From IMG/VR virus record IMGVR_UViG_3300049491_000008, positions 1 through 25,861 of that record: a stretch of DNA of 25,861 nt; one strand, 5' to 3'. The position numbers and the translations under genes are program-made. Shown here in pieces: positions 1,177-25,861 of this stretch; within the stretch, counting starts at the first letter, position 1; every line of letters starts with the position of its first letter. Origin of the DNA: a virus. The notes beneath the pieces were generated by a model, which saw only the letters and a program-made list of their open reading frames with translations, searched no databases and had not been told where the DNA came from.

Positions 1177-3552
1177 ATGCCCGTTCTACAAACTCTTAGA
1201 CGCAGGAACTCAGGGGCTCTCAACACCTTCGACGGTGTTGTACGTTCTCTTAATCCTAGTTCATACTGGACCCTTAGCCAAGCAGCCAGAACTACTGACG
1301 CTGTAACTGACTTCGGTTCAGATTTGAACCATGCGACTTACGGTACATATAATACTGACCCACAGATGCCAGGCCCATTCATAGGAGCTTCTGGTATCTA
1401 CTCTGGCAGTATTATATTCGGCTCTCCTAACGGTACACCTACAGCTACAGTTAGGGCTAAGAAAGCAATTCTAGGAGCAACTACAGCTACAACTGGTACC
1501 ATCATGGGCTGGGTTAGGGCAGGCCCGAACACTGGCTCTGTATACCCGTGCTTTGCACAAGGTTATAACGGTAACACTGGATTTGGTTTACAACTAGAAC
1601 TCTTCAACAGCTCTGGTTGGAAAGTAAGGCTACGAGTACTTGGTAACGGTAACAACCTTACAGTTACATCTACATCTGGTACTATTGTGCAAGGACAGTG
1701 GCATTTCATATGCGCTATCCAAAGGAATAACGGGTCTGGTCCTGCTCTATACATAGATGGGTCTCCCGTAACTACAAGCAACGTAACTGCCGGTACAGGT
1801 ACTGTTAACTGGTGGTGTGCTAACATTGCAGCTCAAGCTGGAGCAACTCCTGCTGATGCTAACGTAAGACTAGGTGGTGAGCCTCTCTTAACAGGTACTA
1901 CTGAAGTTGCTGGTGTAGGTCCGGTAGCTTACTGGAGTAACGTAGCTCTAACAAACCAAAACATACTAGACTTGTGGAATGTTTCAACTCCGTACTTGTA
2001 TTCACAAGGCGCGACAGCAGCTCGTACTAGTTCGCACCACGATATGGTTCGCAAGATAGTGAATCCTGTGTTGTGGCTACCAATGACTGTTGGTGATCCG
2101 GCTAACATAAATACACCTAGTTATGTGCCGAACTGGGGAACGCACGGTATATCTAACTCTAACTCGTTGTACCCGCCCTCTGGATTCGTAACAGCAGATG
2201 GTAACCAGGCTGGCCCTTGTTTAAGGGCAGCAACCATTGATTTGGGTGATGGATCAATCCATCTCGGGTCTAACAAGACTATAGCGCAATCACAGACTCT
2301 TGCATCATCTACTAACACTTTTACAACTGGTACGATTAATTACTGGTTTAATGCAGATACAGTAACTGCGGTTAAGCAGACCATCTTCGGTTATGGACCT
2401 ACTGTAGTTAGTACGATTAACCTTGAAGTCTCGGCTAACAAGAAGCCTACTTGGAGAGCGCAAACAGCATCAGGAGCTAACCTGTATCAGGTAGAAGCTA
2501 ACGTTACTGTAGAAGCTGGCAAGTGGTACATGCTCACTGTTACACAATCAGGCTCAGCAATTGAGATCTTTGTAAACGGTGTCAAATATACTGGTGGTAG
2601 TAGAACAGTAACTACAGCTGGTGCTGGTGTAGACGGTACGTGGTGGTTTAACAATATCACCGCACTTGGTGGTAGTGAATTCTACCGGTGGGGAGGAGCA
2701 GTAGGTTCAGCTACATCTGACTTCTTCACTGGTCGTGTCGCTCACTTTTGGGCTACATCTAGTGTTATAGCTGACGCTGATATCCTGTCGATCTATAATG
2801 CCGCGCAAGCTGGTGCTGTGTTTGAACCGGCGATTACTACTGCCGCTCCGTTGCACTGGTGGAAGCAGAATGATCCAGGCACTTATAAAGACTTTGGTTC
2901 GTCACCTCTGTCTGACTTGACGCTTGTTTCAACAGCCCCTGTTCTAGTCAATAGTTCTAGTTCTGGGCTTGGTACTCCAGATAAGCAGAATGCTCTTAAC
3001 TGGAATAACGTAACTACTAACTTCGCTACAGGCACTGCTGGATTTGGTAGTTCAGCTACAGGATCTGTAGTAGTCTGGTCTAAGAACAGTGGTAACGGTG
3101 AAACGTTCATAGCTCATAGCAACACAGCTAACGAAGTAAATACTCTAGTGTTTGGTGTTAAAGCTAACGGTGTTGGAACAGATAACCGTATGAGCGCTTG
3201 CATGTCCACAACTGCTTTCACAAGCAGACGGGTATGGGAAGGTAACACCGATCTAACTTCTATTCTGAGTGACGGTAACTGGCACATGTTCGTCTGGACC
3301 GCTGACGGTTCAGCCACTATGAAACTGTACCTTGATGGTGCAGCTCAAACAGTTAGTGAAATCACAGCAGGTACACCGCCAGCGTCTACAGCTTGGACTA
3401 GTGCAGTTACAGATGCGAACAGCCGTACTGTAATTGGTAATGCTCGATTCGCTTCAGGTTCAAGTAATACCTCTGGTACTATGGCTCACATTCAAGTGTA
3501 CGACCGTGTACTAACTCCTACAGAAATTTCCGCAATGTACGCAGTAAGGTAA
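1177..3552 (+). CDS. tail adhesin with three LamG/concanavalin-like repeats
   Basis: This 791-residue protein is probably a receptor-binding or glycan-binding tail protein. It is built of three successive concanavalin A-like jelly-roll domains, at about residues 27-268, 298-541 and 559-789. Each shows the same order of marks: a GTIMGWVRA-type strand (107, 385, 629), a W-H/Y-F/M strand (QWHFICA 174, KWYMLTV 449, NWHMFVW 701), a ligand-loop-like YIDG/FVNG/YLDG (about 192, 465, 718), and a closing helix such as ILDLWN, ILSIYN or ISAMYA. The copies are clearly homologous but far diverged. The protein has no fibre-anchor motif of its own, so it likely attaches through the preceding gene product. 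The LamG_3 (Pfam) fold is inferred from the pattern. The ligand is unknown, and a hydrolytic activity is not suggested by any motif I see. Confidence 0.82.
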   Translation: MPVLQTLRRRNSGALNTFDGVVRSLNPSSYWTLSQAARTTDAVTDFGSDLNHATYGTYNTDPQMPGPFIGASGIYSGSIIFGSPNGTPTATVRAKKAILGATTATTGTIMGWVRAGPNTGSVYPCFAQGYNGNTGFGLQLELFNSSGWKVRLRVLGNGNNLTVTSTSGTIVQGQWHFICAIQRNNGSGPALYIDGSPVTTSNVTAGTGTVNWWCANIAAQAGATPADANVRLGGEPLLTGTTEVAGVGPVAYWSNVALTNQNILDLWNVSTPYLYSQGATAARTSSHHDMVRKIVNPVLWLPMTVGDPANINTPSYVPNWGTHGISNSNSLYPPSGFVTADGNQAGPCLRAATIDLGDGSIHLGSNKTIAQSQTLASSTNTFTTGTINYWFNADTVTAVKQTIFGYGPTVVSTINLEVSANKKPTWRAQTASGANLYQVEANVTVEAGKWYMLTVTQSGSAIEIFVNGVKYTGGSRTVTTAGAGVDGTWWFNNITALGGSEFYRWGGAVGSATSDFFTGRVAHFWATSSVIADADILSIYNAAQAGAVFEPAITTAAPLHWWKQNDPGTYKDFGSSPLSDLTLVSTAPVLVNSSSSGLGTPDKQNALNWNNVTTNFATGTAGFGSSATGSVVVWSKNSGNGETFIAHSNTANEVNTLVFGVKANGVGTDNRMSACMSTTAFTSRRVWEGNTDLTSILSDGNWHMFVWTADGSATMKLYLDGAAQTVSEITAGTPPASTAWTSAVTDANSRTVIGNARFASGSSNTSGTMAHIQVYDRVLTPTEISAMYAVR

Positions 3553-3557
3553 CAATA

Positions 3558-3773
3558 ATGGGTCACACAGCTGACAAAATGACGGAGACTCCTCCGGTAC
3601 AAGACCAAGGCGTAACTCGCTCTGGCAATGGTGCTAATCCGACTGTACTTGGTGGTGCAGTTGGTAATGCAGAGAGTGCGATGAAGAGTCGTGCTGAGAA
3701 GAATTTTGATGCAATGAACGAAGCACGTGCAGCTATGGGCTTGCCGAAGCTTCCGTATCCTGATAAGAAGTAA
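3558..3773 (+). CDS. small hydrophilic protein, unrecognised
   Basis: I do not recognise this 71-residue protein. It starts 5 nt after the adhesin stop and lies 6 nt ahead of the next gene, in the same operon. The first 40 residues are Gly/Pro/Thr/Gln-rich and probably disordered. Residues about 40-62 (AMKSRAEKNFDAMNEARAAM) form a charged amphipathic helix, and the C terminus is PKLPYPDKK. No signal peptide, membrane segment or metal motif is visible. Four of its five Asn codons are AAT, unlike the capsid genes. Position in a virion operon suggests a minor virion or assembly protein, but this is only context. Confidence 0.7.
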   Translation: MGHTADKMTETPPVQDQGVTRSGNGANPTVLGGAVGNAESAMKSRAEKNFDAMNEARAAMGLPKLPYPDKK

Positions 3774-3779
3774 CAGAAG

Positions 3780-4247
3780 ATGGCCGATAATTACGCGAGA
3801 CAGCGACAATACATTGATGAACAGCTGAAAGCTAATCCTGGTAATAAGGATCTGCTTAATGCTCGCGAGATGATTGACTATCGCGAGAAGGGCACTCTCC
3901 CGTCACGAGGAGCAGAACCTGACGCAGCTAAGATGAAAGCTAATGCTAAGGCAGCATCTTTCCAAGGAGAGATGACACCTGAAGCTAAAGCTAGTATGGA
4001 TGCTGAATATAAGACACGCACAGCAGCTACTAATGCTCGTAGGGCAGCAGCTAAAGCTGTTACTGACGATGTAGCCAGACGTGCAGTAAGAGATGCAGCT
4101 GGTGCTGTAGCTAAAGGTGCAGGTACAGTAGCACGAGTACTAGGCGGGCCTGAGCTTGCTTTGTATACAGCTCTCGTTCCTCTACATAAATCCCCTGAGA
4201 TGAAATCACTACAAGCGCTGCAAGAAGCTGCTAAGAAGGTATATTAA
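3780..4247 (+). CDS. Ala/Lys-rich small protein, unrecognised
   Basis: I do not recognise this 155-residue protein. Residues 1-35 form a charged helical N terminus. Residues about 45-110 are rich in Ala, Lys, Arg and Asp and probably helical. Residues about 108-134 form a Gly/Ala-rich, moderately hydrophobic stretch (AGAVAKGAGTVARVLGGPEL), followed by a short helical tail. That hydrophobic part could associate with a membrane or pack within the virion, but no clear transmembrane helix is seen. AAGAAG lies about 9 nt upstream of the ATG. The stop overlaps the next start as TAATG. All six Asn codons are AAT. A minor virion or ejected protein is possible from context alone. Confidence 0.72.
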   Translation: MADNYARQRQYIDEQLKANPGNKDLLNAREMIDYREKGTLPSRGAEPDAAKMKANAKAASFQGEMTPEAKASMDAEYKTRTAATNARRAAAKAVTDDVARRAVRDAAGAVAKGAGTVARVLGGPELALYTALVPLHKSPEMKSLQALQEAAKKVY

Positions 4248-4966
4248 TGGCTGTCCTAACTAAAGTCCGTGTACCAGTATCAGATATCGCTACGATATCT
4301 AATGGTACTACAGCGGCTAATATTGCAACAGCTGGTGCTAACATTACAGAGACAGTCTCTGGTAACCTTGTTGGTACGTGGCAAACTACTGGTCTGTTGA
4401 TTGATGCAGCTCGTACTCTTACGGCGAAGACTATCACTAACGAAGTCTTGAACCAGACAGTAGCAGCAGGTGCAACCGGTAGCTTGTCAGCACAAGCTAC
4501 AAAGATGCAGCTTAAGACTACTTCAGCTCATGTGCTAGAACTTCTAGCTAACAGTGTACTCGGCCTCACAGTAGGCACAGACGGGAAGTTGACACTTGGT
4601 GTACAAGGTACATCTGGTAGTCACCTCGTCAATAAGACGTATGTTGATGCAGCAATAGCCGCATCTGGTTCAGCTCCTACAGCGACAGCAGCGACGACTG
4701 GGGGTCTCTCTATCCCTACGGCAGCTGGCACTATCATATTTAAATGGGGCAGGACCAACGGTCTTGGACAACTGACACAAGTTACTTTCGGATCTGCATT
4801 CCCTAATGCGATCTTCATAGCACTAGCTAATGAGATTCAGAATAGGAATGCTAACTCTGACGGTGCTCGTGGTGTGTATGACTTGCAGACAACCGGGTTT
4901 AAGATTAACCAGTCTAACGGGTCTGCTTACACTAACCCGTGGGCGTGGTTGGCGATAGGTTACTAA
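4247..4966 (+). CDS. short tail fibre with gp53-like C-terminal domain
   Basis: This 239-residue protein is a likely tail fibre or fibre-tip protein. Residues 1-125 are a Thr/Ala/Gly-rich beta-repeat shaft. The junction LVNKTYVDAAI (127-137) is typical of trimeric fibres just before the tip. Residues about 158-239 resemble the tail-fibre gp53-like C-terminal domain, with FKWGRT (165-170), QVTFGSAFPNAIF (178-190), TTGFKI (215-220) and a terminal WAWLAIGY. The start overlaps the previous stop by 1 nt (TAATG), with AGAAGG a few bases upstream as ribosome binding site. It is probably a second, independent adhesin beside the LamG protein. The domain is recognised from motif memory. Confidence 0.82.
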   Translation: MAVLTKVRVPVSDIATISNGTTAANIATAGANITETVSGNLVGTWQTTGLLIDAARTLTAKTITNEVLNQTVAAGATGSLSAQATKMQLKTTSAHVLELLANSVLGLTVGTDGKLTLGVQGTSGSHLVNKTYVDAAIAASGSAPTATAATTGGLSIPTAAGTIIFKWGRTNGLGQLTQVTFGSAFPNAIFIALANEIQNRNANSDGARGVYDLQTTGFKINQSNGSAYTNPWAWLAIGY

Positions 4967-5532
4967 TGGATCTTAACTGGCACATAAACTATCAAGGGTT
5001 CTCTGGCCCAGACAAGGATAGGTCTATTCTTAAGAACGCTAATGGTTCTTACAGGATGAACTTGTTCAATGAATGGACATGGAGACCTACAGATAATGAC
5101 CTGCCTTTGTATACGATGAGGGAAGAACCTTACCTTGGTTATCCTTCTGCGTACTTGATCTACATGTATAGTGAATCTGAATACGAAGCAGCTATGAAGC
5201 TGGTTGGTTCTTGGAATCACTGGAATAAACTTCTCACTTCTCAACGGTTCATGGAAGGTAGTAAAGATACTCTTACATGGTCTGGCCTTAAGCAGTGGCG
5301 TGAAGAGAAAGCTATTAAAGATAGAGCAACCGTGTATACGATGCTCAAGATGGCAGCAGCTAGTGGTAATGTGAATGCCCAAAAAATACTTTTCGAGAAA
5401 GACAAAAACGGAACCAGAGGAAGGCCGACAAAAGCGCAAGTCGAGCAGGCTGCAAAAGAGGCGGCAATCCACGAAGAGTTCGTCCAAGAAGATCTCAAGC
5501 GCATACGGTTAGTAGCGAGTAATGGCAGCTAA
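4966..5532 (+). CDS. terS: terminase small subunit
   Basis: This protein should recognise the packaging site and load the large terminase. I choose the ATG at 4966 (188 residues) because it forms a TAATG overlap with the previous stop and has GATAGG upstream; an in-frame GTG at 4939 would add nine residues inside the fibre gene. The N-terminal half is rich in Trp/Tyr. Residues 100-145 are helical (WSGLKQWREEKAIKDRATVY). Residues 150-184 show RGRPTKAQVEQAAKEAA followed by EDLKRIRL, a basic-then-helical tail I associate with podovirus small terminases. The assignment also rests on the large terminase gene, which starts 11 nt before this stop. Codon texture changes near 5375: the last 50 codons look more like the large terminase gene. 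Confidence 0.78.
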   Translation: MDLNWHINYQGFSGPDKDRSILKNANGSYRMNLFNEWTWRPTDNDLPLYTMREEPYLGYPSAYLIYMYSESEYEAAMKLVGSWNHWNKLLTSQRFMEGSKDTLTWSGLKQWREEKAIKDRATVYTMLKMAAASGNVNAQKILFEKDKNGTRGRPTKAQVEQAAKEAAIHEEFVQEDLKRIRLVASNGS

Positions 5533-13148: not shown

Positions 13149-15455
13149 ATGGCAACAGCAGAACAGAGTAAGTTGTTCACTACCTTCGTAGGTGGACTGA
13201 ACACTGAAGCGACAGCGCTTAACTTCCCAGAGAATGCAGCGCAAGAAATTGATAACTTCGATCTTGTAAGGACCGGAGAGATCAAGCGTCGCCTTGGTCT
13301 TGACTTTGAAACTGCTTACGTTATCAGATCTGAGTTCGAGACATCGAGCTATTTGGAGAGGGCAGCAGTATCTAACTCAGAGTGGAAGGCTGTCAATGGG
13401 AAAGGAGATGTTAACTTCCTGGTAGTACAGGTAGGAATGCATCTTTACTTCCACGATCTAGGGGCTGAGCCGACAAGCGATGCTTTGCGTGGTACCGTAG
13501 ATCTAACTCCTTACAAAACCCAATCAGATGCTGACTACCAGATCATGGACACGTCCTATGGTCAAGGTATCTGCATCGTATGTAACCCCGGTATGAACCC
13601 GGTGTACATTTCATTTGATGAAGACACTGAAACGTTCACAACTACGCAGATCAACATCCGGGTCAGGGACTTCGATGGTGTTGATGATGGCTTAGAGACA
13701 GATGAGCGTCCTACTTCATTGAGTGATCCACATAAGTATAACCTTCGTAACCAAGGATGGCCCTTGCTTTCGAACGGTGTATATTCCAAGTCCGGCTCTG
13801 CTGGTACTTGGCAGAATGCAGACCCATTGCCTCTTACTTATAACTTGATTGGCAAGTATCCGTCCAATGCTGATATCTTCTGGGCAGCCAGATGCGTAGC
13901 AGCAGCTTCGGGTAAAGAAGAAGCGATTGGTGCATACAGTGCATTCGCTCTATCCGATAACCTATTTGGAAATACTCCAGCTCCGAAGGGTCACTTCATC
14001 TATGACTTGTTCAATCAAGACAAGGCAGCAGTAAGTGGTATCCCTGTAGCTGCTGACGAGAATAAGATTACAGACGCACGACCGTCTGCTACTGCATTCT
14101 ACGCTGGCCGCGTATGGTACGCTGGTATAAAAGACAGAGAGTATACTGGTGACGTTATGTTCAGCCAGCTGCTCACTGACAAAGCTCGTATTGGTAATTG
14201 CTTCCAAGATCAAGACCCAACAGCTGAAGATCTAAACTCTTTGCTAGCTACAGACGGGGGAGTAATCCATATCGCTGACGCTGGTGAAGTACATCGCATG
14301 ATTGTGATGGGGCAAGATCTTGTGCTAGTGTGTGCTAATGGTGTATGGGCTATTACTGGTACACTCGGTGCTAACTTCAAAGCTGATGACTTCTCAGTTC
14401 GTAAGCTCACTGATATCGGCTCGATCGGCAGAGACACTATTGTCTTGGCTGAGAATCAATTGTTCTGGTTCTCTCAAGGCGGTATCTGGGCTATGCAGTC
14501 TGGTCAGATAGATGATAAGTTCCAACTAGATCGTATCTCTCGTGATACTATCCAGACCTTCTATGATGAAGATCTAGGGCAAGGCGCGAAGGTACTATCT
14601 CGTGGATTCTATGATGAGTTTAGTAAACGTATCATGTGGCTGTATAATGGCTCAGATACGTATGACTCTATCAGTTATAGATTCCGATACGACAAAGCGT
14701 TGCTACTGGATCTGACGTTACCCGCATTCTATTTGTACTCTATCGCAGATCTAGATACTAACTCACCGTTTGTGTCAGCTCTGTCTATGAAGTTCCCTGG
14801 TTCTGCTGCTGTAAACACTTACGATGTAGTGCTCGGTATTGATGACGTAGTACTAGGCGCGGATGATGTAGTCCAAGACTTGAGTTTCACACAGTACGCT
14901 AATAATAAGATCAAACTTCTAACGTTCGTACAAAATGAAGATACAACTTACAGCTATACCTTCTCTGAATTCAACTCACGGGCATTCACCGACTGGTCTA
15001 CCTGGGATACTTATAAACACGGAGTTGGTTTTAACGGAGCTGATTATACCTCGGTTATTCAAACAGGGTGGAATGATTACCAAGCCCCGTTGAATGATAA
15101 GCATATCACTCACGTTACTTCTTACTTCAAGAGAACAGAAGAAGGGTTTGAGCTAGACGAGAATGATGAGATCATCTATCAGTATCCGTCAGGGGCTCTA
15201 GTACAGACTAGATGGGAATGGACAGATCTAGATGTACACCGGTGGACAACACCGACTGAAGCATACAGATTGAATCCTTGGTATATACCTGAGGATGAAC
15301 TGGACCCGTATGATTTCGGGTACACTATTATCAAATCTAAATTGAGGATGAGAGGACACGGCCACGCCTTCAGTATACGGTATACAAGTACTCCCGGTAA
15401 CGACATGAGACTGGTAGGGTTCGCTGTTAACGTAAGAGGCGCGACTAAAGTATAA
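13149..15455 (+). CDS. tail tubular protein B-like nozzle (T7 gp12 type)
   Basis: This 768-residue protein should form the hexameric tail nozzle below the adaptor ring. The N terminus, FVGGLNTEATALNFPENAA (13-31) and EIDNFDLVRTGEIKRRLGLD (33-52), is the hallmark start of T7-like nozzle and phage-stabilisation proteins. The rest is long and beta-rich, including ATAFYAGRVWYAG and LVLVCANGVWAITG segments typical of the propeller body. Length matches T7 gp12 (794). Oddly, residues 559-577 hold a short tandem peptide, DVVLGID, DVVLGAD, DVVQD. CAGG at about 13139 is a fair ribosome site for the ATG at 13149. The stop overlaps the next start as TAATG. Confidence 0.9.
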   Translation: MATAEQSKLFTTFVGGLNTEATALNFPENAAQEIDNFDLVRTGEIKRRLGLDFETAYVIRSEFETSSYLERAAVSNSEWKAVNGKGDVNFLVVQVGMHLYFHDLGAEPTSDALRGTVDLTPYKTQSDADYQIMDTSYGQGICIVCNPGMNPVYISFDEDTETFTTTQINIRVRDFDGVDDGLETDERPTSLSDPHKYNLRNQGWPLLSNGVYSKSGSAGTWQNADPLPLTYNLIGKYPSNADIFWAARCVAAASGKEEAIGAYSAFALSDNLFGNTPAPKGHFIYDLFNQDKAAVSGIPVAADENKITDARPSATAFYAGRVWYAGIKDREYTGDVMFSQLLTDKARIGNCFQDQDPTAEDLNSLLATDGGVIHIADAGEVHRMIVMGQDLVLVCANGVWAITGTLGANFKADDFSVRKLTDIGSIGRDTIVLAENQLFWFSQGGIWAMQSGQIDDKFQLDRISRDTIQTFYDEDLGQGAKVLSRGFYDEFSKRIMWLYNGSDTYDSISYRFRYDKALLLDLTLPAFYLYSIADLDTNSPFVSALSMKFPGSAAVNTYDVVLGIDDVVLGADDVVQDLSFTQYANNKIKLLTFVQNEDTTYSYTFSEFNSRAFTDWSTWDTYKHGVGFNGADYTSVIQTGWNDYQAPLNDKHITHVTSYFKRTEEGFELDENDEIIYQYPSGALVQTRWEWTDLDVHRWTTPTEAYRLNPWYIPEDELDPYDFGYTIIKSKLRMRGHGHAFSIRYTSTPGNDMRLVGFAVNVRGATKV

Positions 15456-15871
15456 TGGTTGAATACCACGAAGAGACAATAGCTACGATCCCAGAGATCA
15501 TAGAACAATTAGCAGACGTAAACCAAGAAGAGTCTGGATTTGATCTACCTCTCAATGTCAGCATAGATATGTACATTGAGCCTTATACTAAAGTCTTCAC
15601 TATGCGTGATGGCTCACAGTTGGTAGGTTATGCAGTATTCTTCCTGATGCCTCACCAGCACTACAGTAATCACATCTTCGCAATGAACGATGTTATATAT
15701 GTAATGCCTGGGTACAGATTGTATAGTAAGAACTTCTTTACATACGTAGAAAGTAAGCTTGATGTAGACGTAGTGCAGTACACTATGAACTATGACAAAC
15801 CTCATACAGGTATGATGGAAGCTCTGGGTTATACTCCCTCAGAAATAGTGTTTCACAAGGTGATGAAGTAA
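15455..15871 (+). CDS. GNAT-like protein at the T7 gp13 position
   Basis: This 138-residue protein resembles the GNAT acetyltransferase fold: a strand QLVGYAVFFLMP (55-66), a strand-plus-loop DVIYVMPGYRLYSKNF (79-94) where acetyl-CoA would bind, and a closing MMEALGYTPSEIVFHKVMK (120-138), which looks like the GNAT C-terminal signature. The classical Q/R-x-x-G-x-G/A loop is replaced by MPGYRLYS, so catalysis is doubtful. T7 gp13, needed for building the internal core, is a similarly small GNAT-like protein directly before gp14, and the next gene here is gp14-like. A role in core assembly is therefore likely, while true acetylation is unproven. It starts by TAATG overlap. Confidence 0.72.
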   Translation: MVEYHEETIATIPEIIEQLADVNQEESGFDLPLNVSIDMYIEPYTKVFTMRDGSQLVGYAVFFLMPHQHYSNHIFAMNDVIYVMPGYRLYSKNFFTYVESKLDVDVVQYTMNYDKPHTGMMEALGYTPSEIVFHKVMK

Positions 15872-20866: not shown

Positions 20867-23444
20867 CGCTCGTAATGCAATGCCAGCTGCTATTGGAGTA
20901 GAGACTCCTCGTATCCAAGCTGGTCCTGACTATACTGTTGCCAGATCTATCACCGCGTTCGGTGAGATGGGCGGGCAGTCATACGCAGGGTATAGGATGG
21001 GTGATCTAAACAATCAACTCCAAGATGCTGGTAATATGATTGCTGCTCTGAACTCACCTCTAGTAGAGGGTACCTACACAGTAGGTCAACAGTTCGGTAA
21101 GAGCGGAGATCTAGTAGGTGTAGATATCAGTAAAGCAGACCCAACAGGGACTGTTGATATTACATCTGAAAGGTTTAAGCGCTTGGAAGCGGCACGTATG
21201 CAAGGGATGATCTCTCAACAGAGAGCGCAGCTAGAAGCAGATGTGATCCTTCGTCAAGCTATAACCAAAGCCCCCGGGTTCGCAGATAAACTACGAGCTT
21301 CAGCAGCATTAGAACTAGGTTTCAATCCTTCTGGTGCAGCTCTTGAACAGTTGTATCTGTCTGGTCCTGATCTTAATAAGACAGTACGTCAGACAGCACA
21401 ACAGAAAGAACTAGAAGATGCTGACTCATACGTAGCAGCTGGTCTGTTCCCTGATAGGGCGACAGCTTTCCACTTCATTCAAGAATCTAAAGTACAGAAG
21501 CAACAGAACGTCATAGATCAGGGTAAGATTACTCGTGGTCAGATGGCAGCTCCTCAGATTACTTCAGCAGCTACACAAGACTTCTCTAACAATGCGAATG
21601 GCTTGCTTGCCGGTATGATAGCTGAGCTTAATACAACAGGTACTATCGCTGACCCTCAGTTCTGGAATGCGCAGATATCACTAGTAGCGCAGAAGACTAA
21701 AGATCAGTACCGTGCAGCTATGGCTTCGTCTGAGATTGCCTATCCTCAAGACGCATACGACTCGATGATTAAATCAGTTGATGCAAGTCTCAAGACGTAC
21801 ACAGACATGGCTAGTAACAACGACTTCATAAAGGTTATGAAGGACCATCGAGACGGTGTGTTCGCAGTAGCTCAGATGCAAGCAGTTGAGATGGCTCCTG
21901 ACTTGTTCGCAGTGTATCAAGTCTCTGGTAATGCTGGTGTAGAGGCTTACCTTAAAGTAATGCAACTCGCTAGTGGTAACCCGAAGCAGCTAGCAGAACT
22001 AGCTAAGTCACGATCTGACATAGCGTACATGGTCAACCTGTCTAACAAGTTGCCAGAAGTATCGAAGGCAATCACTGGGGTTCTTACCCGTGGGATTGGC
22101 CCGATGGTGCGTGCTGGTGCTGTTACCAAGGACACAGCTGAGAAGGTAACACGTAGCCTTGCTGAGCAGTGTACTGCTAATGGTGACCCTACTACTTGTG
22201 CAGCAGCACTAGAAGCGGGTAAGGATCTTGAACTCAAAAACGTATCCGTATCTACCGCAGCTCAAGTACCAGGTAGTTTCACTACAGCTACTGAAGCTTC
22301 TAAAGTATTCGTTAAGAATGCAGCTACTACTAACTTCGAGATTGTAAAAGATCAACTCTCTACATCTCTGGCTGGTAGCAAGTGGAAGCTAGGTTTCGAT
22401 ACCAATAAGAAAGCGTACACTATTGTACCGCGTGAAGATTACGTTGCAGCTAACTGGAGTGATGCATTCCGTCAACCACAAGGGGACGCATTCGCATACA
22501 ACGATAAGACTCGTCAGTATGGTTCTCCTTTACTTGGTAGTCCAGGCCCAGCTGTCATACGTCCTAACGTAGATGCACAGTTGGAAGTATTGAATCATCA
22601 GATTCAAGGGCTAGCTACGCAACCTGATTGGTCCACTTATGTATTCGATCAGACTACATTCGACCCGACTACATTCACGAATCAAACGATCAATGAGATC
22701 AATCTACGTGCAGTGGATAAAGAACTACAGAACACTGATGTTACTTCTGGTTATACAGTTAAAGAACAAGTAGATCTGTACCACGCTATTGAAGAAGCGC
22801 GTAAGACTGGTGATCGTACTAAATTAGATGAACAGCTTAAAGCACTTGGCCTAGAAGATACAAGACAAGCAACCAGTGCACCTGTCACTGAACAAGTAGC
22901 CCCTCCGGTTACTCGTCTTGATGCTGGTGTATACAAGGATGATGTAACTGGGGAAGTATTCTCGGTTGGTGCAGATGGTAGTCATACCATTCTGTCTGGT
23001 CCTAACAGTGGTAAGATCATCCGTGGTCCTGACTTCGGAGATGCAGGTCTTGGTGTAGTACAACTACCAGTGGGCGATGAAGCTTCTCCTATCTTGGAAG
23101 TACTTAAGAATGCAGCATTCAATAACGGGGTAGACCCGAACGTATTTGCTAGCCTTTCCTTCCAAGAGTCTACTCTGAACCCGAGAGCACAGAATCCAGA
23201 GAGTTCAGCTGGTGGGCTGACTGGTTTAATTGACGCAACAGCCGCAGGTCTTGGAGTAACCAATAAGTATGATCCAGTACAAAACGCAGAAGGCGGAGCA
23301 GCATACCTCAATGCCGCTCTCAAGCGAACCAATGGTGATTACAGGGAGGCGCTGGCCTTATATCATGGCGGTATCAATAAAGACCAACCAGACGCAGCAG
23401 ACTACGCCTACGCAGATCAGATCCTTAGCCGACTGAAGAAGTAA
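20847..23444 (+). CDS. ejection protein with C-terminal lytic transglycosylase domain
   Basis: This 865-residue internal virion protein has long helical regions and a C-terminal SLT-type lytic transglycosylase, which would cleave peptidoglycan while the ejection channel forms. Catalytic Glu774 lies in [13 protein letters not shown], followed by [31 protein letters not shown] and ALALYHGG, the expected order of SLT motifs. The N-terminal and central helical parts could correspond to T7 gp15 (747 residues). Two starts are possible: ATG at 20847, or ATG at 20853 (863 residues). The purine run AGAGAG at 20840-20845 is only 1 nt from the first but 7 nt from the second, so 20853 may be the true start. 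It lies 2 nt ahead of the collagen-like fibre gene. Confidence 0.88.
23166..23168 (+). other. catalytic Glu codon of the transglycosylase domain
   Basis: The GAG codon encodes Glu774 in SFQESTLNP, the position of the general acid/base Glu in SLT-type lytic transglycosylases. The following Ser (ES) is the usual neighbour in this family. Confidence 0.75.
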
Positions 23445-23446
23445 TC

Positions 23447-25288
23447 ATGGCTTTTAGAAAAGTAAGTGATACAGAGCTACTACTCGATAGAGTAGGACAG
23501 TCTCTTAAGTCTTTCACTGGGCCAAGAGGACCGGTTGGTCCTGTCGGACCTAAGGGAGACAAGGGTGACACTGGCCCTGTAGGGCTACCAGGGGTACCTG
23601 GAGAACGTGGCGCTACGGGCCTCCCAGGGGCCTCTGGAGCGATGGGGCCAGCTGGTCCTAAAGGGAAGGATGGTAAAGATGGTAAGCCTGGTAAGGATGG
23701 AAAGGACGGGAAGCCAGGGCGTGATGGCCGTGATGCTGGGTCTTTCTCCATTGGTGGTATGCTTGTCAGCCATCTGTCTGATGTGTACGGCGGAGATGCA
23801 GCTACAGACGGTCAAGCACTAGTATGGGATAACGCTGTACGTAAGTGGCACCCAGGTTCTATAGCTGGTGCTGGTGAGACTAACACTGCCTCTAACCAAG
23901 GAGCTGGTGTAGGGCTGGCCATGACGAAGGTAGGTGTAGACCTGCCCTTCAAGACGCTAGTAGCGGGTACTAATATAACCCTAACTCCATCAACTAACAC
24001 AGTAACGATTGATGCAACTGGTGGTGGTGGCGTATCAGATGGAGATAAAGGCGATGTTGTTGTTAGTAGCTCAGGCACTGTTTGGACTATTGATAGTAAT
24101 AGTGTCGATAACACTAAGCTTAGCGATGTTGCAACCAGTACTTTCAAAGGGCGCATTACGGGAGGTTCGGGAGATCCAGAGGATCTGTCGGTCGCTCAAG
24201 CAAAAACCCTATTAAACCTAACAGGTACTAATAGTGGGGATCAAACGATTACCCTTACTACTGATGTAACTGGTTCAGGCACTGGATCATTCGCTACTAC
24301 GATTGCTAACAATGCAGTCACTAATGCTAAGGCTGCCGATATGGGGGCCAACACTATCAAAGGTAACAATACCGGTGGTAGTGCAGACCCGATAGACCTG
24401 TCAGTTGCTCAAGTACAGGCTATGTTGGGCACCTCAGGTACCAACACTGGTGATGTAACTCTTGCTGGTTCACCTACTTATATAACTATAGCTGGTCAAG
24501 TAATCACACGTAACGCAGTTGACTTGACTTCGCATGTTACTGGTGACTTGCCATTGTCTAGCTTGGCTCAATCAGCTGCTGCTAGCAGACTGCTTGGTCG
24601 AGGTTCAGCTGGTGGTGCAGGTGACTACGAACCTATCACAGTAGGCGGTGCACTGTCCTTCTCAGGTACAGTACTAAGCGCTACAGATACCAACACCCTT
24701 GGGCCTGATGGCGATAAAGGGGATGTAACAGTAGGCGGTACTGGTACCACACTGACGATTGATAACAACGCAGTAACGTATGCAAAGATGCAAGACGTAT
24801 CTGCGACTAACAGATTCTTAGGTCGTATCACAGCAGGTGCTGGAGATACGGAAGAACTAACAGGGACACAAGCTACATCTCTACTAGATCTATTCTCAAC
24901 TAGTACTACGACTAAAGGTCTTGTACCTGGTTCGAACGGAGTAGCGTCTACTAACTTCTTGAACGCTAGTGGTGCATGGAGTGTACCAGCCGGTGGTAGC
25001 GCTGACGGGCTAGGCCCGGATGGTGACAAGGGAGATGTAACAGTTGGTGGTACAGGGACTACCCTTACCATTGATAACGATGCAGTAACATACGCTAAGA
25101 TGCAGAACATCTCGGCTGCAAGCTTACTGCTAGGGAGAGGGAGCGCTGGCGGTGCTGGCGATCCACAAGAAATTACTCTAGGCACTAACCTGTCTATGAG
25201 TGGTACCACGCTGAATGCTACGGGCGGTGGTGGAGGACTGACACAAGGTCAAGCAGTAGCAGCAATTCAAATGATAGCGATGATTTAA
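23447..25288 (+). CDS. collagen-like tail fibre with internal repeats
   Basis: This 613-residue fibre starts with a short helical anchor (1-24), then 24 uninterrupted Gly-X-Y triplets (25-96) that should form a collagen-like triple helix. Residues about 100-130 ([25 protein letters not shown]) match a small domain common near fibre N termini. From about 190 on, the shaft consists of repeats built on DGDKGDV, a [17 protein letters not shown] strand and [11 protein letters not shown]-type turns (copies near 199, 418 and 522). It ends with a short helix [11 protein letters not shown]. Copies at 418-449 and 522-553 are almost identical as protein yet heavily recoded as DNA. AAGAAG lies 5 nt before the start. 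It is likely a trimeric receptor-binding fibre or its stalk, with the tip supplied by downstream genes. Confidence 0.87.
23519..23734 (+). repeat. collagen Gly-X-Y tract, 24 triplets
   Basis: Residues 25-96 of the fibre are 24 perfect Gly-X-Y triplets. The first half is Pro-rich and the second half is Lys/Asp-rich, with the nonamer GKDGKDGKP repeated in tandem (nt 23663-23716). Lys-Gly-Asp pairs can give interchain salt bridges that stabilise bacterial-type collagen without hydroxyproline. Confidence 0.92.
24698..24793 (+). repeat. fibre shaft repeat, copy A
   Basis: This segment encodes residues 418-449, starting [14 protein letters not shown] and ending AVTYAKMQ. Copy B at 25010-25105 encodes the same 32 residues with one change (Asn to Asp), while 19 further codons differ synonymously. 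Confidence 0.9.
25010..25105 (+). repeat. fibre shaft repeat, copy B
   Basis: This segment encodes residues 522-553, the partner of copy A. It is followed by [13 protein letters not shown], which also repeats an earlier segment near 24590-24630 ([13 protein letters not shown]) with nine of eleven [11 protein letters not shown] codons changed synonymously. Confidence 0.9.
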
Positions 25289-25289
25289 T

Positions 25290-25724
25290 ATGGCAGCTAA
25301 CACAGCACCGATCTACAGCATATCTGGAGATCAATCGAACAACGGTACTACGGGTATGAACGCCCTGATTACCGCAGCAGCGGCAGATTATACTGGTGCC
25401 GGTGCTAACAACTCTCTCGTTTTTACAGCTGACAGCACTAACGGTTCTTTTGTAGAACGGTTGCGTTTCAAAGCTGGTGGTACTAACGTAGCCGCTGTTA
25501 TGAGGATCTACCTCAACAACGGGTCTACCAACGCTACTGCAACGAACAATGTGTTCTATGGAGAGATTTCTCTTCCTGCTACTACAGCGTCTACGACAGC
25601 CGCAACAGTAGAAGTTGATTACCCAATGGGCTTCGCAATGAAGGCCGGTTGGCGTATCTACGTCGGGCTTGGTGCAGCAGTGGCTGCTGGCTGGGTATGC
25701 ACTCCTATCGCCGGTAAGTACTAA
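25290..25724 (+). CDS. fibre-associated small virion protein
   Basis: This 144-residue protein starts MAANTAPIYS and shows a beta-sandwich pattern: LITAAAADYTGAGANNSLVF, VERLRFKAGGTNVAAVMRIY (residues about 55-74), NNGS, EISLPATT, AGWRIYVGLG and a final AGKY. I know this layout from widespread small proteins encoded beside phage tail-fibre genes, usually annotated as structural or unknown. It may cap or decorate the collagen-like fibre. It starts 1 nt after the fibre stop with no clear ribosome site, so translation is probably coupled. Confidence 0.72.
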   Translation: MAANTAPIYSISGDQSNNGTTGMNALITAAAADYTGAGANNSLVFTADSTNGSFVERLRFKAGGTNVAAVMRIYLNNGSTNATATNNVFYGEISLPATTASTTAATVEVDYPMGFAMKAGWRIYVGLGAAVAAGWVCTPIAGKY

Positions 25725-25725
25725 A

Positions 25726-25861
25726 ATGCTGTACGGTACTAAGGCTGATACTTTACACATGCCATTTAGCTCCAGAGCTGATGTGCAGATATTCAATCGA
25801 CCAAGTACCGCTAACAACCTTCAAGCCTATACTTGGATTAAACCAAGGGGTGTAACTAACG
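25726..25861 (+). CDS. partial tail protein, 5' end only
   Basis: An ATG one base after the previous stop opens a frame that stays open to the window edge (45 codons). It reads MLYGTKADTLHMPF, then QAYTWIKPRGVTN at the edge. The WxKPxG(A/V) signature is typical of phage tail proteins in which it is followed by a Gly-rich shaft or tip, so this is probably another fibre or tip protein of the same cluster. The product is cut by the window, so its length and C terminus are unknown. Confidence 0.6.
   Translation, partial: MLYGTKADTLHMPFSSRADVQIFNRPSTANNLQAYTWIKPRGVTN

Follow-up and report, generated by a model that had tools for sequence, protein, structure and literature searches.

The fibre gene of this virus encodes peptides that recur almost unchanged, and the DNA beneath them differs at most of the codons. 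The initial annotation had offered two explanations for this: selection that removes recombination-prone direct repeats, or old copies held by purifying selection on the protein. The DNA examined (the window, i.e., the whole stretch analysed) is a complete virus record of 25,861 bases. The gene occupies 23447–25288 on the plus strand, the strand of all repeats and modules described below. It is an open frame of 613 amino acids with a short N-terminal region, a collagen-like stretch and a series of DUF5907-type modules. We asked which of the two explanations the codons of the repeats, the exact repeats in the gene and the wider module family favour.

Two Pfam families were matched above their curated cut-offs: Collagen (PF01391; 53.9 bits vs. 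27.2), with its best stretch at residues 24–77, and DUF5907 (PF19264; 63.5 bits vs. 27), in two stretches of which the best spans residues 529–591. The Gly-X-Y stretch (23516–23731, approximately residues 24–95) also accounted for most of the PHROG tail-fibre matches and for the PDB sequence matches, which comprised 31 solved structures, almost exclusively collagens, whose best stretches lay between residues 9 and 99. Genes upstream matched terminase, head-tail adaptor, major head protein, tail appendage and internal virion protein families. Based on the PHROG matches and the position after these virion genes, the product is probably a phage tail fibre or virion protein. Judged by its domains it would be a collagen plus DUF5907 fibre, and nothing was found that would place the gene outside the DUF5907 family. 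The terminase shared approximately 43% identity with its counterparts in Vibrio phage ICP2 (Zobellviridae) and others. Searching the phage collection with positions 22800–25861 revealed no nucleotide relative, and when genes with 150 bp in common at 80% identity were grouped, the fibre gene stood alone in its cluster. An AlphaFold2 model of residues 418–613, built with 12 sequences, was too poor (pLDDT 57, pTM 0.21) to indicate a fold or a reason for constraint.

Several other proteins of the window were recorded alongside the fibre. Directly 3′ of it, a 144-residue protein (25290–25724) had no PHROG match at E 0.001 and no Pfam match at E 0.01; judged by its position, it is perhaps a fibre tip or a chaperone. 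A 791-residue protein (1177–3552) matched a virion structural PHROG (phrog_8510) and carried a Laminin_G_3/concanavalin-like lectin domain (PF13385, E 2.7e-25); it is a possible second host-binding protein. A C-terminal Gp53-like tail-fibre domain (PF21882, 34.4 bits, cut-off 24.9) was present in a 239-residue protein (4247–4966). A 138-residue protein (15455–15871), flanked by the tail appendage gene on one side and other virion genes on the other, gave a weak match to an acetyltransferase family (phrog_1249, E 9e-5) and none in Pfam up to E 0.01.

Five modules, starting at residues 198, 272, 333, 421, and 525, were marked in the fibre by a profile that had been seeded with the modules of the window itself and refined using related loci. 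Module 1 (24038–24190, residues 198–248) is typed by a 16-residue stretch, and the first half of module 2 (24260–24403, residues 272–319) is unlike the DGDKGD type. Module 3 (24443–24640, residues 333–398) shares 73% identity with a module of locus L089 across 66 residues and carries the first copy of an 11-residue segment (24593–24625), which recurs at 25130–25162. Module 4 (24707–24862, residues 421–472) and module 5 (25019–25177, residues 525–577) overlap copies 1 and 2, respectively, of a 32-residue repeat (24698–24793 and 25010–25105); their second halves are 22 and 23 residues long. In the collagen-like stretch, the nonamer GKDGKDGKP occurs twice in tandem (23663–23689 and 23690–23716).

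On recount, the coordinates, reading frame and codon counts first given for these repeats all proved exact. The 32-residue copies share 31 of 32 residues (the exception being N/D); of the shared residues, 12 use the same codon and 19 a synonymous one. Nucleotide differences at codon positions 1, 2, and 3 numbered 1, 0, and 20, respectively. Nine of the eleven codons differ between the 11-residue copies, including Ser TCA vs. AGC, and six of nine between the nonamers. It might be argued that such figures are chance or a counting artefact, arising from a wrong frame or from short stretches picked because they differ. The three examples were indeed chosen by eye, and when the module pair is taken in full (52 aligned residues), 15 of 39 codons match, vs. 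15.3 expected. Against this, the protein repeat is real, being 31/32 identical in frame and lying within a Pfam family matched above its curated cut-off, and no frame or assembly error was seen in the stretch. We therefore give an artefact almost no credence: the observation is correct and its cause is ordinary.

The ordinary cause became apparent when codon matching was compared with random draws. For the 32-residue repeat, 11 of 30 degenerate codons match, vs. 12.5 expected from the gene's codon usage (P(≤) 0.35) and 11.2 from that of the window (P(≤) 0.56). Corresponding values were 2 of 11 vs. 3.8 (gene) and 3.5 (window) for the 11-residue segment (P 0.20 and 0.27), and 3 of 9 vs. 4.2 and 4.0 for the nonamer (P 0.32 and 0.38). 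The Nei–Gojobori pS of the 32-residue pair was 0.82, compared to 0.76 ± 0.11 for random codon redraws, at a pN of 0.014; dS is undefined because of saturation. The DNA had been called strongly recoded, but matching sits at the level of a random draw, which takes away the surprise, and the phrase amounts to "saturated". At its synonymous sites the pair retains no detectable trace of common ancestry, and identity is not significantly avoided. A recent duplication within the gene was ruled out by this saturation. Import from a source of differing base composition was also considered; third-position GC was 0.35 and 0.42 in the two copies and 0.34 in the gene, all from small samples.

These counts bear directly on the proposal that identity-breaking silent changes were favoured since exact repeats cause deletions. 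All three repeats fall slightly below expected codon matching, as such selection would have it, but none does so significantly (P 0.16–0.56 over these deviations and that of the exact repeats below). Combined, 16 of 50 codons match vs. 19.7 expected (P 0.17), so that synonymous identity is not significantly below random. The power of this combined test, which used the window only, was 0.90 for 50% avoidance, 0.72 for 40% and 0.24 for 20%; weak repeat avoidance confined to this gene would thus escape it.

Exact repeats gave a similar picture. The gene contains one pair of exact 12-mers, vs. 6.7 ± 5.5 in 2000 synonymous shuffles, of which 16% were as low. Its longest exact repeat is 12 nt, but the shuffled versions already average only 14.8 nt. 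All deviations for repeats of at least 9 bases are downward, which counts against a purely passive reading; 8-mers do not follow (98 vs. 91.8). Among 38 fibre genes, the window's included, its exact-repeat rank of 0.12 was the lowest, level with that of L121, but a lowest rank of 0.12 in 38 genes is not unusual. Together, the 38 genes hold 890 exact 12-mers vs. 326 after shuffling, an excess to which a few genes contribute most; 26 genes lie above their shuffled mean and 12 below, none ranks under 0.05 and 11 rank over 0.95. Eighty control open reading frames from the same loci, which still include near-copies, likewise showed an excess in sum (295 vs. 34.6), with 47 of the 80 below the mean, and the excess is therefore not special to fibres. 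In a larger set, 22 of 72 fibre genes contain an exact repeat of at least 20 nt. Taken with the overall excess, this indicates that direct repeats are not purged from fibre genes as a rule, and the deficit that the initial annotation had led one to expect against shuffled-codon controls was not significant in the window gene and reversed across the 38 genes.

To place the window pair among its relatives, 327 loci plus the window were surveyed. The three scans for relatives kept the best 80 of 134, the best 80 of 137, and the best 80 of 426, and different locus labels often derive from one contig. Of 659 domain hits, 557 were kept (E below 1e-3, at least 35 residues). Clustering on a shared 150 bp at 80% identity left 188 of 327 open reading frames with 325 modules; the profile itself had been refined on 98 of 165 frames left once near-copies were removed. 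Pairs were counted only with at least 35 aligned residues, giving 41,539 module pairs from the 188 DNA-distinct genes. Codon memory was defined as (matches − expected)/(positions − expected), so that 1 denotes identical codons and 0 random ones.

Between genes, memory was 0.02–0.05 in every protein-identity bin from 0.2 up, values that the DNA clustering biases downwards. Even the 54 between-gene pairs with at least 90% amino-acid identity matched at only 905 of 2454 codons vs. 818 expected (memory 0.053). Within genes (222 pairs, 67 genes), memory rose from 0 to 0.31, the latter in 13 pairs at 80–90% identity, and was 0.08 in the five pairs from three genes at 90% or more (90 of 206 codons vs. 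80.4). Per-gene memory, taken over pairs of at least 50% identity in 59 genes including the window's, averaged 0.103 (95% CI 0.058–0.151), being positive in 41 genes and negative in 18. The distance between copies was not detectably related to codon difference (rho 0.10, P 0.23, 140 pairs), and near copies were not more different than distant ones. Repeat-breaking selection predicts negative memory within genes, lowest for neighbours; neither was seen, and the survey thus does not support it.

Individual genes covered both extremes. In L103 (frame 3689–5206), three modules that are 90–97% identical in protein match at 15/39, 15/39, and 16/36 codons, vs. 15.1, 15.0, and 14.2 expected, and this gene is the clearest other case of constant protein at random codons. 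The fibre gene of L108 presents the opposite: its modules at residues 109, 187, and 261 have 30/35, 27/38, and 23/33 identical codons and look young, which speaks against anti-repeat selection. Considering the non-significant counts in the window, the 12-mer excess in fibre genes (even if a few genes dominate it and control frames behave alike) and within-gene matching above random with no effect of spacing, we regard anti-repeat selection as a very improbable cause of the pattern.

The repeats are, with high probability, two copies of an old and widely shared DUF5907 fibre module in which purifying selection has kept the protein while silent sites became saturated. The module would pack in the fibre shaft, probably as a trimer, and its protein would be constrained as a result; amino-acid changes would be removed and silent changes would pile up to saturation. 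The DNA repeat would then have faded passively with age, and selection against direct repeats would not be required. We infer purifying selection from the low pN alongside a saturated pS. This agrees with the second of the two explanations given at the outset, except that either copy may have its nearest relative elsewhere.

How widely the module is shared was evident from the peptides themselves. DUF5907-related modules occurred in many virus contigs and also in bacterial and archaeal contigs. The window's own subtype, GDKGD[IV] followed by ten residues and [IV]D, was encoded by six further gene clusters. When most of that peptide was written as a degenerate DNA pattern, the virus collection yielded 11 matching stretches. 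One viral contig, L081, encodes the same 18-residue stretch as the window gene in a fibre gene of 63% GC, vs. 50% in the window gene; the core of its second module agrees with copy 1 at 27 of 29 residues and at 61 of 87 bases. In a comparison limited to ungapped cores (167 cores of 29 residues in 127 clusters), 97 of 13,815 between-gene pairs differed at no more than one of the 29 residues; one of 46 within-gene pairs, the window's own, did so too. The twelve between-gene pairs with all 29 residues alike matched at 116 of 334 codons vs. 116.8 expected. For the motif LGRGSA.G.GD, 446 of 1677 codons matched between genes (169 pairs) vs. 440 expected, and 4 of 22 within genes (two pairs) vs. 6.8. 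Its serine was encoded by TCN in 14 of 19 instances and by AGY in 5, showing that both serine codon families are used here across the family.

The ancestry of the two window copies themselves was less clear-cut. Their cores agree at 28 of 29 residues, and any core elsewhere agrees with them at no more than 27 of 29. With so few between-gene pairs (the 97 of 13,815) reaching that level, this fits shared ancestry of that half and is a point against the explanation given above. In contrast, a comparison of 92 second halves from 77 gene clusters paired copy 1 with L095 (21 of 22 residues identical) and copy 2 with L007 (22 of 23). Because each second half is closest to another virus contig, the gene reads as a mosaic, and the comparison suggests, with less support than the reading of an old module, that it was put together from shared half-modules rather than by a fresh internal duplication. 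Across whole modules, copy 1 was nearest to a module of L081 (84%) and copy 2 to one of L089 (85%), compared to 77% between the copies.

A tree restricted to the 103 of 325 modules that aligned with a window copy over 45 residues or more at 68% identity or higher (52 columns) also separated the copies: the starred branches force two changes, and 0% of 200 bootstrap trees united them, in a bootstrap that had not settled. An AU test on the same 52 columns did not reject the tree that unites both copies (p 0.073), despite a log-likelihood lower by 50.75. Module order adds a further point. L001 and L089, which are one contig by name, carry a module like module 3 and, 88 residues on, a module 81% identical to copy 1 and 85% identical to copy 2. 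Modules 3 and 4 of the window are likewise 88 residues apart, and part of the module order was thus perhaps inherited as a block.

Two histories fit these data: separate acquisition of the modules, or an internal duplication long ago with half-module exchange afterwards. Independent acquisition, in which the two modules came from different phages and were never duplicates within the gene, would refine the explanation by an old shared module rather than replace it. It is favoured by the nearest whole modules lying in other contigs (L081 and L089), by the near-twins of the second halves in L095 and L007 and by the separation in the tree. It is weakened by the AU result, by first halves that are closest to each other, by the block-like order at 88-residue spacing and by the fact that half-module exchange after an internal duplication could yield differing second halves. 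On balance we consider it a serious candidate that falls somewhat short of being probable.

The reading of an old DUF5907 module under purifying selection has consequences beyond this gene. Once silent sites have become saturated, a repeated protein can rest on non-repeated DNA with no need to invoke anti-recombination selection, and DUF5907 cores that are identical between DNA-distinct phage genes at random codons make the constraint on the peptide a structural question. A modest by-product is the recognition of near-invariant peptide half-modules common to unrelated phages. More speculatively, phage fibres may draw on a common stock of such half-modules (approximately 29 and 22 residues long, meeting near AKMQ), which unrelated phages would combine freely; we put this idea forward tentatively. 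If so, codon identity hardly above chance would mean that the exchange is very old or proceeds via very short DNA identity, and some feature of the protein, e.g., the register of the shaft, would hold the peptides near constant across hosts.

Among the papers searched, none dealt with DUF5907, and the titles listed included nothing on recoded phage fibre repeats. The family (PF19264) is a repeat of unknown function, of which the window gene is a member that combines the repeats with a collagen stretch. Repeats within proteins have been reported to be under purifying selection, with dN/dS < 1 (Nat Commun 2016, PMC5120217). That paper puts its weight on repeats diverging faster than orthologues do, and it gives no dS value where pS ≥ 0.75; under that rule, the window's 32-residue pair (pS 0.82) would receive no value.

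A close known likeness is polyubiquitin, in which protein repeats are near constant and silent sites strongly different, as in the window fibre. The 32-residue pair falls in the same regime of low pN (0.014) and saturated pS (0.82) between units. The evolution of polyubiquitin has been debated between purifying selection with birth-and-death and concerted evolution (Sharp and Li, 1987; Nei et al., 2000; as reported in PMC10457151). Concerted evolution would make DNA closer within genes than between them, and this was not found for the window pair, whose cores share 69 of 87 nucleotides, vs. up to 68 of 87 with L318 and L328. Across the DUF5907 family such closeness is small, with memory of 0.06–0.31 within genes (identity bins from 0.5 up) exceeding the between-gene values, themselves lowered by clustering, and in the window pair it is undetectable. 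Unlike polyubiquitin, the fibre unit is common to DNA-distinct phage genes, in which it appears in varied combinations of half-modules.
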